Shown here: one piece after another, positions 5,741 to 31,407 of the stretch | Layout: the number at the start of each line of letters is the position of its first letter | Numbering within the stretch: the stretch's first letter is position 1 | Virus record (IMG/VR): IMGVR_UViG_3300046003_002627 | Location: 1 to 32,098 of that record | Direction: 5' to 3' (one strand) | Length of the DNA: 32,098 nt | From: a virus | The notes under the pieces: generated by a model | Told to the model about the DNA's origin: nothing | Databases searched by the model: none | Seen by the model: only the letters and a program-made list of their open reading frames with translations | Made by a program: the position numbers and the translations under genes

Positions 5741-5776
5741 AAAGCCCTTGCAGAAATGTGAGGGCTTTGTTTATTT
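5741..5776. terminator. Bidirectional hairpin terminator between convergent operons
   Basis: AAAGCCCT (5741-5748) and AGGGCTTT (5761-5768) form a perfect 8-bp stem with a 12-nt loop. On the plus strand it is followed by GTTTATTT, a usable U-rich tail. On the minus strand the tail (ACCTTATAA) is poorer. It lies exactly where the rightward lysis block and the long leftward operon meet. Confidence 0.8.
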
Positions 5777-5938
5777 GTCATCCATTCCCAAAAAAACTAA
5801 TATCGCACAAACCATAGGCACTTGTTTCAACCGTTCTATTAACGATTTGTATTCACGTTCTTGAACGTAATACCAATATACAATACCAATTATTACTATT
5901 GATAATAGTGCTATAAGCAATACCATTTCCTTACTCAT
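5771..5938 (-). CDS. Small single-TM protein, 55 aa
   Basis: An ATG at 5938 opens a 55-aa frame (MSKEMVLLIALLSIVIIGIV...) with one strong membrane segment at about residues 5-23, then WYYVQEREYKSLIERLKQ as a cytoplasmic or periplasmic helix and a moderately hydrophobic C-terminus (VCAILVFLGM). The start overlaps the stop of the preceding two-TM protein gene by 8 nt, so the two are probably translated together. It is the last gene of the long leftward operon, and its stop lies beside the terminator. A holin-like or lysis-accessory role is possible but unproven. Confidence 0.65.
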   Translation of the reverse strand: MSKEMVLLIALLSIVIIGIVYWYYVQEREYKSLIERLKQVPMVCAILVFLGMDDK

Positions 5939-9031: not shown

Positions 9032-9574
9032 TTAAACTACGTAACAAGTAAACAAGTTATTTGGAATAGCCGATTCTTCAGGGAAGTTATCAGATGTCCA
9101 CTTAACTTCTACATCCCAAGTGCGCTCAACTTTTAAATCGTTTGCGATTGGATTCTTTGGTACGATTGTGCAAGGCTCATCACTGATGGCAAGCACTGTT
9201 TCTGATCTAAATGCTACGTGAAAATTACGTGAGCCCTTAACGCTATTGTAATGGTTACGATTACCTACATAGTTAGGGTCTTTAAATGACAATAAGAAAG
9301 TGTAAGAATTTAAACTTTCCTCAGTATCGCCATAACCTTGGCCCATGTTAGGTGTTCCACCATCAAATTCACCTTGTGTTTCAGGGTAAACAATGATTGC
9401 GCCTGATGCTATGCCCGCATTCCACAACGCTTCATCTTCGAAGTCAGTTGATAATGTTGGGTAATAGCTTTTATTTATAAATGCAGTTCCTCTAACGCGA
9501 GATAACTCAACGCCGCAAGTACCACAACTGTGGGCGGTAATGTTTTCATCACAACCCGATGGATAATATGCCAT
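9032..9574 (-). CDS. Candidate major tail tube protein paralog A, 180 aa
   Basis: A 180-aa protein without membrane segments, predicted beta-rich, beginning MAYYPSGCDENITAHSCGTCG. It is the paralog of the next gene (see motifs there). The position (capsid, connector, neck, terminator-like, then this) matches that of the major tail protein in siphophages, and the size is normal for a tube subunit. It precedes a stable hairpin, which may favour its production over paralog B. No characteristic tube motif is visible, so the name is inferred from context. Confidence 0.7.
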   Translation of the reverse strand: MAYYPSGCDENITAHSCGTCGVELSRVRGTAFINKSYYPTLSTDFEDEALWNAGIASGAIIVYPETQGEFDGGTPNMGQGYGDTEESLNSYTFLLSFKDPNYVGNRNHYNSVKGSRNFHVAFRSETVLAISDEPCTIVPKNPIANDLKVERTWDVEVKWTSDNFPEESAIPNNLFTCYVV

Positions 9575-9586
9575 GATTATTTATTT

Positions 9587-10138
9587 TTAGCACTCACAGA
9601 TGACTGTGCAGCCTCTGCGATATGATTGTTTGATTTCGTATCGAACTGCAAGCAGTCCATGGTTTAGACCGACTCTCACATCGGGTATTGAACATTCCTC
9701 GCGAAACACTAAAGTTGAATTCATTTCGGTTTCCGTTAACTCGAATGTGCAATCAAATACGTTAATGCTCTCACACACTAATTTACTTAACACACTTGGA
9801 ATAGCCGAAACAAATATATCCTTAATTGTTTGCGATGTCAATGTTTTATTTGCATAAATGACAAGTGTAACTGGTGTTGTTTCCTCCACCTTATCCATCT
9901 TGTCACCAAAATTGTTTTCAATTACTGTTAAACGTGATGACTCGCTGCGATGATACCAACTAATTTCGTATTGATCTTGCAATAAACAGTTAGTTACTTC
10001 GCCATTAATGTTGATGCCAGGATAACGCTTCTCGCCATCATAGTAAAACTCAGCAAGTCCAAACGCCTTGTTAGGTGTTAATGGTAACGCTGCGATTATA
10101 GCGTTGTCAATTTCGGTTATTACTTGCTTTAAATTCAT
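9587..10138 (-). CDS. Candidate tail terminator / head-tail joining protein, 183 aa
   Basis: The 183-aa protein starts with an amphipathic helix (MNLKQVITEIDNAIIAALPL) and continues as mixed alpha/beta, ending in a Cys-rich tail (RRGCTVICEC). It lies directly after a gp10/gpG-like neck gene (ATGA overlap at 10135-10138) and before the tail-tube candidates, the usual site of the tail terminator protein that caps the tube. An N-terminal helix followed by a beta sheet agrees with that fold class, but sequence motifs are not diagnostic. Confidence 0.6.
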   Translation of the reverse strand: MNLKQVITEIDNAIIAALPLTPNKAFGLAEFYYDGEKRYPGININGEVTNCLLQDQYEISWYHRSESSRLTVIENNFGDKMDKVEETTPVTLVIYANKTLTSQTIKDIFVSAIPSVLSKLVCESINVFDCTFELTETEMNSTLVFREECSIPDVRVGLNHGLLAVRYEIKQSYRRGCTVICEC

Positions 10139-27968: not shown

Positions 27969-28243
27969 ATTGTTAATTTATAATTTATAGAAAACGTAAT
28001 TTTTTTCTAAGTCTTTTCTAATAACTTTTCTAAGTCTTTTCTAAGCTATAACCCTTACTACTACTATATTTTATATATATATAGAAAAAAGAAAGAGGTA
28101 AATGGCTAAAACTATTCCTATTATTATTATTGATAATATTTTTTGTAGTAGTTTGCCAAATACCTTTTCTATTTCTATTTTTTTCTAAATAATTAGTAAT
28201 CAATAGTTTAATATAGAAAAGACTTTTAGAAAAAACATTACTA
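27969..28243. other. AT-rich non-coding region with repeats and a large inverted repeat
   Basis: This 275-nt gap is very AT-rich. It contains the 19-bp direct repeat (28003-28044), further TTTTCTAA copies or near-copies (28181-28188; the reverse complement TTAGAAAA at 28226-28233), a perfect TATTAT-TG-ATAATA palindrome near 28124-28137, and an imperfect inverted repeat at 28097-28164: GGTA/TACC, TGGC/GCCA and AAACTA/TAGTTT. A frame across part of it (28030-28284) is low-complexity and judged non-coding. Iterons plus AT-rich DNA beside helicase and nuclease genes fit a replication origin or operator (inference). Confidence 0.5.
28003..28044 (+). repeat. Two 19-bp direct repeats built of four TTTTCTAA units
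   Basis: TTTTCTAAGTCTTTTCTAA occurs exactly at 28003-28021 and 28026-28044 (23-bp period). Each copy holds two TTTTCTAA units, so the unit starts at 28003, 28014, 28026 and 28037 (11, 12, 11 nt apart), about one helical turn each. This is the look of iterons or an operator array rather than a simple sequence. Confidence 0.75.
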
Positions 28244-29800
28244 TTAATATGGTTGTCTGTTTTCATAATCGCTATAAGATTCATTTTGAACGGTTTGAGT
28301 ATTTTCCCTCACAAATAGAAACGGAGTGCCTTTCTTTTTTTCAAGGTAATTATTGCTATTAAATGGAAAATAATACTTATTCGGTTGTGGTGTCATTTTC
28401 ATTTCATTTTTAAGCACTTTAAGGATGTAAGACATCTTTTCTCTTTCTTTGTCAAACCACCTTTCTTTAATATCTTTTGCAGTTGCTTCAAACTCATTTA
28501 CATCGTTATTGTTAAAAAAGTCATCAATGTATATTTCAAGTTCTTTTCTCAATCCGTTTTTACTTTCTTTTTTGATAAGCTCCAGCGAATCAGTTTGTAT
28601 TTCTTCCTGCGTGAATACCATGCGCGAATTTGAAAAGTCAATATCAGGCAGTTGTTCTAAATATTTTAGGAATTTAGGTATCTCGTTAAACAAATCATTT
28701 TCAATGTTTGTATTTTTTTTGCCAACGATTGGGTTTATTTTCCTAATCCAAAAGCGAATTTCTTCGTCATCAATTCGCATAAAATCGGTTTCCTTATTTG
28801 TGCAAACGATAATTTTACCAAAGAATGGAACGCTGTAATGTTGCACAAACTTTTGCGATACTGAAATAGTTTTTGCAGTTGCCAACGATTTAAGTTTTTC
28901 AACAACGTGTTGCTTTTCAATTACGGTTTCATCAATCATAATTATATTCTTTGTGGCATAAGCATCGTTAAAGCTACTCATTAAGTCACTTGGATTGATA
29001 AGTGTTGAATTTTCGCCAAATAACATCTGAATATAATTTAAAAAAGTAGTCTTACCTGTTTCTCTTTCAGTTGAAACTAACGAAAGCACTGGCAATATTT
29101 GACAAGGATACTCATAAAGTAACTTCATGTACTTCAAACCTAATTCTAACTGCTCACCAAATATGTGACTTAACAAACCAAGTGTAACACTAATGTCATT
29201 GGTGTAAACAGTATCACTAAATTTTGTATGTGGGAATTTGGCATACAAATTATAGCAGTTGTTTTTAGATGGAATAAAAGTCACATTATTAGGAATAATT
29301 GTGAAGTCATCAAACTTATAAATTTTGCAAAGTATATTTTTCGTATGATCTTCTTTTATTTCATCTTTTTTCCAAGACTTTAAAATAACATTAGTTCCTG
29401 AATAGCGGTCATCTTTTTTAATTACTTTAAAATAATCGGAGCCAACGCGAATGTAAGGTATTTCGTTTTGCATTATATTGTAAGAAACGTGACTCATTGC
29501 TTGAAAGTAATCGCCTTTAAATTTTACTGTTGTAAGTAAAATAAATTTACTGAAGCTTTGTCCAGTTGCTAAATCAAATGGGTTTGACTTCTTAATGTCA
29601 ATCTTTCCGTTTTTATTTAAAATAAAATTAGGACTTTTAGACAAATCACTTGCATCACTAACTGGATATGTTGCTTCAGTTTCTGAAAACGAAATACATT
29701 TTTTATCGCCCTCAAATATTTGTTGCATCGTTCCAAATTCGTTAAACCAATCTATTGGATTGTAGATTGAATTCTTTTCGGGTTTCTTAAATTTGTTCAT
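28244..29800 (-). CDS. D5-like SF3 helicase (primase-helicase), 518 aa
   Basis: The open frame starts with TTG at 29809, but the ATG at 29800 (MNKFKK) is preferred; it lies 14 nt inside the upstream gene's end. It has an N-terminal region without a recognised primase motif, then an SF3/DUF5906-like ATPase: STERETGKTTF (about 243-253, Walker A), NIIMIDET (about 285-291, Walker B) and GKIIVCTNK (sensor). The C-terminal 130 residues are helical with a winged-helix-like part. It probably unwinds the phage DNA together with the BT4734-like primase encoded upstream. No SD is visible. Confidence 0.85.
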   Translation of the reverse strand: MNKFKKPEKNSIYNPIDWFNEFGTMQQIFEGDKKCISFSETEATYPVSDASDLSKSPNFILNKNGKIDIKKSNPFDLATGQSFSKFILLTTVKFKGDYFQAMSHVSYNIMQNEIPYIRVGSDYFKVIKKDDRYSGTNVILKSWKKDEIKEDHTKNILCKIYKFDDFTIIPNNVTFIPSKNNCYNLYAKFPHTKFSDTVYTNDISVTLGLLSHIFGEQLELGLKYMKLLYEYPCQILPVLSLVSTERETGKTTFLNYIQMLFGENSTLINPSDLMSSFNDAYATKNIIMIDETVIEKQHVVEKLKSLATAKTISVSQKFVQHYSVPFFGKIIVCTNKETDFMRIDDEEIRFWIRKINPIVGKKNTNIENDLFNEIPKFLKYLEQLPDIDFSNSRMVFTQEEIQTDSLELIKKESKNGLRKELEIYIDDFFNNNDVNEFEATAKDIKERWFDKEREKMSYILKVLKNEMKMTPQPNKYYFPFNSNNYLEKKKGTPFLFVRENTQTVQNESYSDYENRQPY

Positions 29801-29975
29801 TTTCGTCAATTTGTTTTATCATTTCTTGAGCAAATTCTCTTGCAGCAAAACATATAATTTCTATGTCAAGTTCTTCAAAATCTTTATAACTTTCTTCCAT
29901 TTTTGAAATAAAACTTTGCATTGCTAATCCTGCAAAGTAATCAAATCTTTCTTTTTTTGTTTTTGGGTTTTCCAT
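29787..29975 (-). CDS. Small conserved phage protein with AGLAMQ motif, 62 aa
   Basis: A 62-aa helical protein with DYFAGLAMQSFI near residue 12, followed by an acidic helix and AAREFAQEMIKQ. The YFAGLAMQ pattern is common in small Bacteroidota phage proteins and has no known function. Its start lies 11 nt after the terminal stem of the upstream RNA element (a pseudoknot with U6), so its expression is likely controlled by that element. Overlaps the helicase gene start by 14-23 nt. Confidence 0.85.
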   Translation of the reverse strand: MENPKTKKERFDYFAGLAMQSFISKMEESYKDFEELDIEIICFAAREFAQEMIKQIDENEQI

Positions 29976-29978
29976 AAT

Positions 29979-30080
29979 AAAAAATACCTATCAAACACAA
30001 AGGCTTACCCACTCGTTGCGGTCGCAACAATTGGCAATGTGAATGATAGGATTTTTAAATATTTTCATAAGTGAGTAAGC
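29979..30080 (-). ncRNA. Pseudoknot RNA element 2 (leader or small RNA)
   Basis: In minus-strand RNA, A = GCUUACUCACU (30080-30070) pairs with A' = AGUGGGUAAGC (30013-30003), 11 bp with one U-G. B = CCUAUCA..CACA (30050-30038) pairs with B' = UGUG..UGAUAGG (29999-29987), 7 + 4 bp with a UU/UU loop. The order A-B-A'-B' is a pseudoknot. Between B and A' is a third hairpin, GUUGC-GACC-GCAAC (30028-30015). U6 (29984-29979) and AUUAUG follow. A predicted -7 box ends 4 nt before A, so A would be the RNA's 5' end. A 25-codon ORF (30068-29991) spans it and stops in B'. Confidence 0.6.
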
Positions 30081-30084
30081 GGTG

Positions 30085-30115
30085 CAAATATAATTAAATA
30101 TTTTTAATTCCTAAA
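30085..30115 (-). promoter_or_regulatory. Promoter for RNA element 2
   Basis: On the minus strand TATATTTG at 30092-30085 is an exact -7 box. TTTAG at 30115-30111 lies 18 nt upstream as an imperfect -33. The start of transcription should be near 30081-30080, which coincides with the first base of the pseudoknot's A strand. Confidence 0.6.
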
Positions 30116-30116
30116 T

Positions 30117-30995
30117 TTATTTAGATAAATAAGTAGGAAAATTTAAACCCTTATCCACCATTTGTTTTGCGGTTTGTTTATACACATCAGGCTTTTTAGA
30201 AAGGTAGCTTTGCGAATCAATTAAGTTATTGATTAAAGAAATGGCATCATTATAATCAATATAATTTGCGCCAACATAACCTCCGAGCAAGTAACTCGTA
30301 GCACGTAAAATAATATGCCCAGTATCGGTTATGGTATTAATACGCTTTGAAATAATCTTTTCTATAACAGAAGTTTTGTCATCAATAATATATTGTTTTA
30401 CTGCAGGCCTAACGATTTCAATATGTTTTGTTGACCAAGTTTGAGCATCGTTTCTGTGTAGAATGTCGGCATCGTAACTAATAAACATTGGTAGTATGCA
30501 GTTCTTTGGTGCTGTATCAAACCCATTATAACAGTTAAGGTGTCGCTCAATTCCTGCATAGTATTGTTTGAATTCATCTACCGAAGTGCAAATCGGAATC
30601 TTAACCAGTGCGCGAACACCATGCCTTGAAGCCGATAGCCACGCGGTTATGATGTATTTATATTCATTGAATAAATATTCTTTAAATTCAACTGCCACAT
30701 CGGATGCTAAATGGTCAAAGTCTAAAACAAGTAAGCCAGTCCAATGTTGAATGTTGGAATACTTACGCGGCCCGTTAACATAAACACATGGAGTAAACGA
30801 GTATAGTTTTGACTTTAATGCTTGTTTTTTAGCCATGTCTTTATTTTCCTCTGCAATCCTTATCTCCTCAAATACATTGCGGATATCTTTTTTAGGTGTT
30901 CTAATAGCGTTTATAAGATATTCAAGCGTAACACTACCAAGTGGAGTGCTACGTTTGATGTCGGCTTCGTAATAGTTGAATGTTATTGGTTGCAT
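30117..30995 (-). CDS. BT4734/VirE-N-like primase-type protein, 292 aa
   Basis: The N-terminal 190 residues match the BT4734-like (VirE N-terminal) domain: GLLVLDFDHL (about 87-96), KYIITAWLSASRHGVRALVKIPI (about 113-135) and YYAGIERHLN, then PMFISYDADILHRN. These regions hold the DFD and S-x-x-H-G residues of the primase-polymerase-like fold. The remaining 100 residues are helical (IILRATSYLLGGYVGANYIDYNDAISLI), like the extension seen before D5 helicases. It overlaps the J-domain gene by 13 nt and probably synthesises primers for the SF3 helicase encoded downstream. Confidence 0.85.
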   Translation of the reverse strand: MQPITFNYYEADIKRSTPLGSVTLEYLINAIRTPKKDIRNVFEEIRIAEENKDMAKKQALKSKLYSFTPCVYVNGPRKYSNIQHWTGLLVLDFDHLASDVAVEFKEYLFNEYKYIITAWLSASRHGVRALVKIPICTSVDEFKQYYAGIERHLNCYNGFDTAPKNCILPMFISYDADILHRNDAQTWSTKHIEIVRPAVKQYIIDDKTSVIEKIISKRINTITDTGHIILRATSYLLGGYVGANYIDYNDAISLINNLIDSQSYLSKKPDVYKQTAKQMVDKGLNFPTYLSK

Positions 30996-31264
30996 AACAA
31001 ATAATAAAATTCGTTTATAGCTTGCATTGCTTCATTACTTCCTCCCTTATCAGGATGAAACCTTTTAGCCATAGTTAAATAAATTGTTTTAAAATTTACA
31101 TTTTTAACTGTTGGTGGATTTATATTAAACCTTGATGCGATTTCACATTTTATTGCACCAGACAAATCTTCATTTATATCAAAATTTTCAAGTGCATAAA
31201 TAAGGTAACTTGTTTCAATGTCATCAATGTAAGTGCCTTTAAATTTTCCAAATGGGAATTTCAT
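30983..31264 (-). CDS. DUF3820-like plus J-domain fusion protein, 93 aa
   Basis: The first half (about 1-47) has the pattern FPFGKFKGTYIDDIETSYLIYALE with SGAIKCEIASRF, like the C-terminal module of exonuclease X/DUF3820. The second half (about 50-92) is a truncated J domain with IYLTMAKRFHPDKGGSNEAMQAINEFYYLL, including the intact HPD triad that activates Hsp70 ATPase. It could recruit host DnaK to replication, as lambda P and similar factors use chaperones. It starts 14 nt after the U6 of RNA element 1 and overlaps the primase gene. Confidence 0.8.
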   Translation of the reverse strand: MKFPFGKFKGTYIDDIETSYLIYALENFDINEDLSGAIKCEIASRFNINPPTVKNVNFKTIYLTMAKRFHPDKGGSNEAMQAINEFYYLLCNQ

Positions 31265-31277
31265 AGTTATAATAATT

Positions 31278-31372
31278 AAAAAAGCCTATCTAATTTCGTG
31301 TAGGGTTCGACTTCTACACTCCATTAAATAGGCCAATAAGTTTATGTTTCTTTAGTGTCGAACCGAAACAAC
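31278..31372 (-). ncRNA. Pseudoknot RNA element 1 (leader or small RNA)
   Basis: In minus-strand RNA, A = GGUUCGAC (31364-31357) pairs with A' = GUCGAACC (31311-31304) in the loop of a long hairpin. The hairpin arms are B = GCCUAUUUAAU, GGA, GUGUAG (31333-31314) and B' = CUACAC, GAA, AUUAGAUAGGC (31303-31284): 11 bp (one U-G) plus 6 bp, with a GGA/GAA internal loop. U6 (31283-31278) follows directly and the ATG is 14 nt further. A -7 box ends at 31377, so RNA would start near 31372. A 12-codon ORF (31324-31286) stops in B' in the GAUAGG motif. Confidence 0.65.
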
Positions 31373-31376
31373 AATG

Positions 31377-31407
31377 CAAACTTAATGAATCTTTCCCAAA
31401 GTCGCAA
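31377..31407 (-). promoter_or_regulatory. Promoter for RNA element 1
   Basis: On the minus strand TAAGTTTG at 31384-31377 is a -7 box overlapping the exonuclease stop codon, and TTG at 31407-31405 is 20 nt upstream as the -33. Transcription should start near 31372, about 8 nt before strand A of the pseudoknot. Confidence 0.6.

Follow-up and report, generated by a model that had tools for sequence, protein, structure and literature searches.

The window analysed here, the whole of a 32,098-base virus record, carries phage genes in long runs on one strand. Element 2, the subject of this study, occupies the minus-strand gap that separates a VirE-N/BT4734-like primase gene from a gene of 62 aa without a confident family (29787–29975, ATG at 29975), and all coordinates below likewise refer to the minus strand. 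Read 5′ to 3′, it is preceded by a predicted -7 promoter box of the Bacteroidota type, TATATTTG (30085–30092), recognised by sequence reading and situated 4–5 nt 5′ of helix A at every one of 18 homologue sites; the consensus of such boxes is TAnnTTTG (PMC7366714). Transcription would start about 4 nt past the box, which together with the pairing places the 5′ strand of helix A, GCTTACTCACT (30070–30080), at the predicted transcription start. An A-rich linker, TATGAAAATATTTAAAAAT (30051–30069), joins A to the 5′ strand of helix B, CCTATCA-TT-CACA (30038–30050), in which CCTATCA (30050–30044) and CACA (30041–30038) flank one side of a 2x2 internal loop. There follow a conserved unpaired TTGCC (30033–30037; YTGCC in most homologues of the alignment), a third hairpin, P3, of sequence GTTGC-GACC-GCAAC (30015–30028) that has compensatory changes among relatives, and the 3′ strand of helix A, A′, AGTGGGTAAGC (30003–30013), which crosses helix B. 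The 3′ strand of helix B, B′, TGTG-TT-TGATAGG (29987–29999; TGTG at 29999–29996 and TGATAGG at 29993–29987), lies 3 nt 3′ of A′, and both helices are identified by pairing and covariation. Abutting the B stem is a terminator-like U-rich tract, TATTTTTTATT (29976–29986), and from sequence, nested fold and joint lengths the stem stands 11 nt from the start codon.

An earlier note on this DNA had read the same succession of box, A at the 5′ end, B, A′, B′, U-rich tract and start codon, and every one of these pieces was found. The whole is an H-type pseudoknot with an inner hairpin, and the helices are those the note had described: A/A′ of 11 bp including one U-G, when read off the minus strand, and B/B′ of 7 + 4 bp enclosing the third hairpin. 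Its pseudoknot score is 43.5, where shuffles average 19.3 and none of 400 dinucleotide shuffles is as good; the nested fold has z = -4.3. The crossing-helix scores of elements 1, 3, 4 and 5, described below, were likewise reached by 0/400 shuffles each, and that of a leader in the Flavobacterium columnare phage FCV-1 by 1/400. Because its B helix is split by an internal loop, element 2 escaped a single-sequence pattern scan of the window. A terminator scan for loops of 3–8 nt found no classical terminator site here, because the B loop is long; a G-C-based stem followed by a U tract, as in an intrinsic terminator or attenuator, is present with a loop that exceeds the standard scan, and the tract (UAUUUUUU) is broken by one A.

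A protein scan with the primase retrieved 46 phage loci, and element 2 lies behind the primase gene in only a few of them, most of the others having element 3 or none. Scanning for the A-rich linker gave 24 viral stretches, most with the element 2 structure and some very divergent. A covariance model of element 2 (R2; the corresponding model of element 1 is R1) detects 19 copies at 39–121 bits, all from uncultured phages, and confirms two of the divergent ones (L265 and L266). Two patterns independent of the linker recovered the same set and one more divergent copy, in L273. The contigs carrying element 2 are environmental and often partial. Pairing was read from an alignment built on the model and, separately, from a hand-made helix table, as MAFFT alone misplaced A′ in some rows.

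The homologues have several telling features. First, 94.7% of cells in the 19-row alignment are paired, compared to 70.6% when the 3′ letters are shuffled, and double-sided compensatory changes number 110 cells compared to 31 in the shuffles, with 19 of the 27 pairs changed on both sides. Second, the covariation measure is 0.610, against 0.179 for shuffled letters and no more than 0.093 with the partners slid; a displacement of 1–3 columns abolishes the signal. Third, A/A′ examined by hand has 9–12 pairs without a single mismatch in all 15 sequences, which form 13 distinct helices, and 12 of them contain a U-G pair. Fourth, the pairs counted across copies include 22 G-U and only one A-C, and we therefore assign the fold to the minus-strand transcript, since the opposite transcript would present these pairs as A-C. 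The crossing helices A/A′ and B/B′ and the inner hairpin are all kept by compensatory change. The earlier note had named conserved sequence with lost pairings as the pattern that would speak against it, and the reverse is seen: the sequence varies and the pairings persist. These comparisons support the view that element 2 is a structured phage RNA with covarying helices, coupled to a predicted Bacteroidota-type promoter.

The joints between the helices, and those to the flanking signals, vary little. The box lies 4 nt from A at 16 of 18 sites and 5 nt at the other two, despite differing upstream DNA; among the homologues the linker is 18–20 nt and the A′–B′ joint 3 nt; and B′ is separated from the ATG by 9–11 nt in 14 of 15 copies, with different genes downstream; one copy, in L272, lacks a start codon in the next 20 nt. 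The 3-nt joint would fit a path that leads from A′ into B′, with the long A-rich linker returning along the helices. One pairing proposed in the earlier note fared less well, namely a switch in which UUGCC pairs with GGUAA in A′ and competes with A/A′. The type found in the window offers 5 bp for it, and 13 other variants just 2–4 bp; this alternative pairing is not kept among the variants tested, and we reject the competing helix.

A second structure, element 1 (31280–31371), lies further upstream on the same strand. Its box, TAAGTTTG (31377–31384, from sequence reading), overlaps the stop codon of an exonuclease gene, and an alignment of 29 sequences gives the order 5′ hairpin, A, B, inner hairpin, A′ and then U6. 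Here A (31364–31357) is held in the loop of the 5′ hairpin (31369–31365/31350–31346) and A′ (31311–31304) in the loop of the inner hairpin (31319–31314/31303–31298), within the B stem (31333–31323/31294–31284). A and A′ are paired in 100% of cells across 29 distinct sequences. The helix occurs mainly as three alleles (GGUUCGAC, GAUUCCAC and GGUCUCAC, each with its partner), and over the entire structure 17 pairs have changed on both sides. Behind it is a 93-aa J-domain-like gene (30983–31264; DnaJ E=0.0012, below the Pfam cut-off). In this position many relatives carry a 187-aa PD-(D/E)XK nuclease-like gene, as in L001 (5450–6013) and its relatives, where it lies behind a 49-aa gene following element 1. 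Elsewhere in the window, a 275-base AT-rich gap (27969–28243) with repeated TTAGAAAAGACTTAGAAAAG units is conserved behind the primase-helicase gene in three other phages (L003, L009 and L043) and is possibly an origin or regulatory region.

The claim that elements 1 and 2 follow the same plan holds for the order A-B-A′-B′ and fails for the wiring, which is a loop–loop pairing in element 1, with A and A′ each in a hairpin loop, as against a free 5′ end (A) and a strand 3′ of the inner hairpin (A′) in element 2. R1 detected no copy at the element 2 loci to which it was applied and R2 did not detect element 1, in both cases at E up to 10, and with these cross-searches empty a single family is rejected; element 1 forms a covarying family of its own, wired differently. 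The CCUAU/AUAGG that the two share, to which the earlier note had drawn attention, is a coincidence of the window genome and is not conserved in relatives, which have CCCAU, CCCGU or CCCCU at this position of element 2 and CCCUU, CCCGU or CCUGU in element 1. Of the covarying family of structured RNAs that the note had anticipated, the covarying helices of element 2, the Bacteroidota-type promoter and the occurrence in phages stand, and the union of the two elements does not.

Three further sequence types resemble these elements. Element 3 (L004 6898–7031 and about 20 relatives) sits in the slot held by element 2 in the window, and consists of a 5′ hairpin, A (GATTCAC), an inner hairpin with A′ (GTGAATC) in its loop, a 15-bp B stem and U6; it precedes the 61–62-aa gene or the primase-helicase gene directly. 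Element 4 (L017 about 5752–5875, L038 about 5203, L215 and L241) occupies the element 1 slot, with A ACCCGCCAA, A′ TTGGCGGGT in a hairpin loop and B CCCCTATC/GGTAGGGG, and in some phages lies 5′ of a 700-aa primase-like gene. Element 5 (L054 about 9246–9350) has a similar plan, with a GTAGGAG/CTCCTAC pairing between two hairpin loops, a GU-rich B stem and U6, and stands before a DNA cytosine methyltransferase-like gene. In all three, A′ lies inside the inner hairpin. Two replacements link the types: in L015 element 2 is placed between promoter and start codon in flanks that hold element 3 elsewhere, and the small gene that element 1 precedes has element 4 in front of it in other phages; the elements therefore behave as interchangeable modules. 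A U-rich tract follows a C/G-based stem in elements 1–5 and in the FCV-1 leader. The leaders of two other promoters in the region are unstructured and lack this kind of stem, and genes here can therefore do without one.

The A-rich linker deserves separate consideration, and its conservation is partly built in, the linker having belonged to the main search pattern. The L273 copy and a second copy in L272 break that pattern yet retain both the AUG and the A-rich linker. Compared with shuffled linkers, a common linker motif is above expectation for element 3 (0.25% of shuffles) and for one element 4 variant (2%), and not for elements 1 and 5. The linker AUG occurs in every aligned copy, including the two that break the pattern, and this raises the idea of a translation-sensing attenuator, in which a ribosome starting there would cover A and B and prevent both pseudoknot and terminator. 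We regard this as very improbable, since the frames read from the AUG vary in length, the shortest having 4 codons and others staying open across the element, since elements 1, 3, 4 and 5 have no linker AUG even though one slot can hold element 3 in place of element 2, and since a structural role of the A-rich linker would explain the conserved AUG equally well. A leader peptide encoded from this AUG is rejected, as neither length nor frame is conserved.

The window and its close relatives have the 61–62-aa gene without a confident family behind element 2; outside this locus most copies precede free-standing homing endonuclease genes. The endonuclease lies directly behind element 2 in nine loci (L022, L187, L195, L258, L260, L262, L263, L268 and L269), with HNH_3, NUMOD4, NUMOD1, NUMOD3 or GIY-YIG domains. 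The corresponding gene in L259 has an AP2 domain below cut-off, and those in L264/L267 and L261 are HNH-like by eye, without a Pfam match. In L022 (about 9150–10008) and L187, a resolvase gene contains element 2 and its endonuclease within its 3′ end. The gene has acquired a new end (C-terminus) upstream, and the displaced old tail remains behind the endonuclease. This is the pattern expected of homing, and element and endonuclease move together as one cassette. Such cargo was seen for element 1 only in L095, where a divergent copy lies 5′ of a NUMOD4-HNH gene, and not for elements 3, 4 and 5.

Each element could instead be an independent small RNA gene, with its own promoter, a compact RNA of about 100 nt whose 5′ end is buried in helix A and a terminator, acting in trans on host or phage targets, the gene behind being merely a neighbour. 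The unit is complete from promoter through terminator, a 5′ end in a helix and a U-rich 3′ end are typical of stable small RNAs, nearly every contig has no more than one copy of a given type, and the genes behind elements 1 to 4 differ. However, element 2 holds its 9–11 nt to the next start codon despite different genes, its stable partner is the cargo gene with which it travels, unrelated sequences substitute for each other in one slot, and the free drift of the helices leaves few candidate seed sequences; we consider a trans-acting RNA unlikely.

Rfam 15 has no match anywhere in the window at the gathering cut-off, and at permissive thresholds it gave chance matches of at most 13.7 bits for element 2 and none for element 1. 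A blastn search of 50,697 phage records found no close copy of either element; matches in Freya, Bacteroides and other isolates extend over about 20–40 bases only and were taken as chance, and two matched loci that were read further (MT835485 and OP172646) contain no element. Among bacterial genomes there are 50 exact linker matches, none with the pseudoknot, which therefore serve as a useful negative control for the linker pattern. Covariance model searches of 395 and 399 Bacteroidota genomes gave no matches, a weak negative in view of the stricter filters used. Approached by way of the endonuclease, FCV-1 has an analogous leader (L348 1107–1203) between a RusA-like resolvase gene and a NUMOD4-HNH-AP2 gene, with a TATATTTG box, a hairpin with a GTAGTGC loop, the stem AAAAAAGACT/AGTCTTTTTT, an inner GGG/CCC hairpin with a GCACTAC loop, a U run and the ATG. 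At least 80% of the length of this stretch is matched in 65 phage records. The FCV-1 leader is a loop–loop pseudoknot, its stem is flanked by A8/U8, and the gene behind is annotated as hypothetical only. The Polaribacter phages P12002L (L346 1084–1198) and P12002S (L347 1046–1198) have other structured leaders before HNH genes, in which the stem loop can pair just 5′ of the start codon (GCGTTTA with TAAACGC, twice, and TCTATGTT with AACATAGA).

We propose, with a probability of roughly 55%, that element 2 is a promoter-coupled 5′ leader RNA that acts in cis as a brake on the gene behind it. The TAnnTTTG box would set the start of the transcript at helix A, and the A/A′ helix would close once A′ exits the polymerase, locking the leader. 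B/B′ and the U tract would then halt most transcripts by intrinsic attenuation, and in the mRNA that reads through, a B stem 9–11 nt from the AUG would leave scant free RNA and limit ribosome access. Expression of the gene behind would in this way be low or regulated, with some release signal perhaps relieving the brake. Such a brake suits the commonest cargo of element 2, free-standing homing endonuclease genes that move with it as one cassette, and it is favoured by the covarying structure and its assignment to the minus-strand transcript, the fixed box–A and B′–ATG spacings, the terminator-like tract, the endonuclease cargo, the co-mobility and the modularity. Counted against it are the A-interrupted tract, the lack of a classical terminator site, the unstructured neighbouring leaders, the absence of this cargo for elements 3–5 and the L272 copy.

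Two other roles for a leader have to be weighed against attenuation. One is put-like processive antitermination, known from the putRNA of phage HK022 (PMC9378689), by which the polymerase would be altered by the RNA folding behind it. The position right behind the promoter and the RNA-only anatomy would agree with this. Put elements, however, are stem-loops without a terminator-like U tract, element 2 itself ends in such a tract, and no terminators were identified further downstream; we regard put-like action as extremely improbable. Alternatively, termination would be beside the point, and the pseudoknot would be a translational operator that blocks ribosomes by itself or when bound by a phage protein, such as a single-strand binding protein. 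The tight stem-to-AUG spacing of element 2 would suit an operator, and there are precedents in the pseudoknot operator of T4 gene 32 (PMC3014915) and the hairpins at the starts of T-even homing endonuclease genes (PMC2988022). Against this are the long terminator-like U runs, uninterrupted or nearly so, that follow the stem in elements 1, 3, 4 and 5 and the FCV-1 leader, the variable start-codon spacing of element 1, and a range of genes behind the elements too diverse for simple autoregulation, and we find an operator quite unlikely. Extending the attenuator reading beyond element 2, we tentatively suggest that Bacteroidota phages possess a class of interchangeable promoter-coupled pseudoknot attenuators, in at least six sequence types (elements 1–5 and the FCV-1 leader), that would serve accessory and mobile genes as their standard leader; their helices would drift by compensatory change at fixed joint lengths, and a common A-rich linker and mode of release may be shared.

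Element 2 is a well-supported RNA family absent from Rfam, linked to homing endonucleases, in a phage group with little-known RNA biology, and it suggests a way in which selfish genes that insert between phage genes hold their own expression low. The related leader before the endonuclease gene of FCV-1, a cultured phage, makes the model testable. In kind, element 2 is a probable structured regulatory leader RNA of a phage, outside any named family. The T4/T2/RB69 gene 32 leader is likewise an H-type pseudoknot in a phage 5′ leader with an A+U-rich stretch before the start codon, but is much smaller, is bound by its own single-strand binding protein, has no terminator tract and serves one essential gene (PMC3014915). 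HK022 putRNA is also a phage RNA element directly behind a promoter, but it acts on polymerase to prevent termination, whereas element 2 ends in a terminator-like tract (PMC9378689). In T-even phages, RNA hairpins directly 5′ of homing endonuclease genes, whether free-standing or intron-encoded (I-TevI, segB, Aeh1 mobE and seg43(25)) are thought to limit expression, and in seg43(25) the stem ends just 5′ of the ribosome site, much as here; these are simple hairpins that mask the Shine-Dalgarno sequence on read-through transcripts and are bypassed by an internal late promoter (PMC2988022). Element 2 has a promoter before the whole structure, a pseudoknot, a U tract after it and other genes also served. 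An endonuclease lies directly behind the RNA in the nine homologous loci, the window having the 62-aa gene instead, and in place of a masked Shine-Dalgarno sequence with an internal late promoter there is a TAnnTTTG box that precedes the entire element. The PeSL cassettes of T4-type phages are mobile promoter and stem-loop units between phage genes, among which pseudoknots and covarying families are not known. They share with element 2 the mobile union of promoter and RNA structure. Newly observed here are the endonuclease cargo outside the window locus, the joint mobility into a resolvase gene, the swap with element 3 and the analogue in FCV-1.
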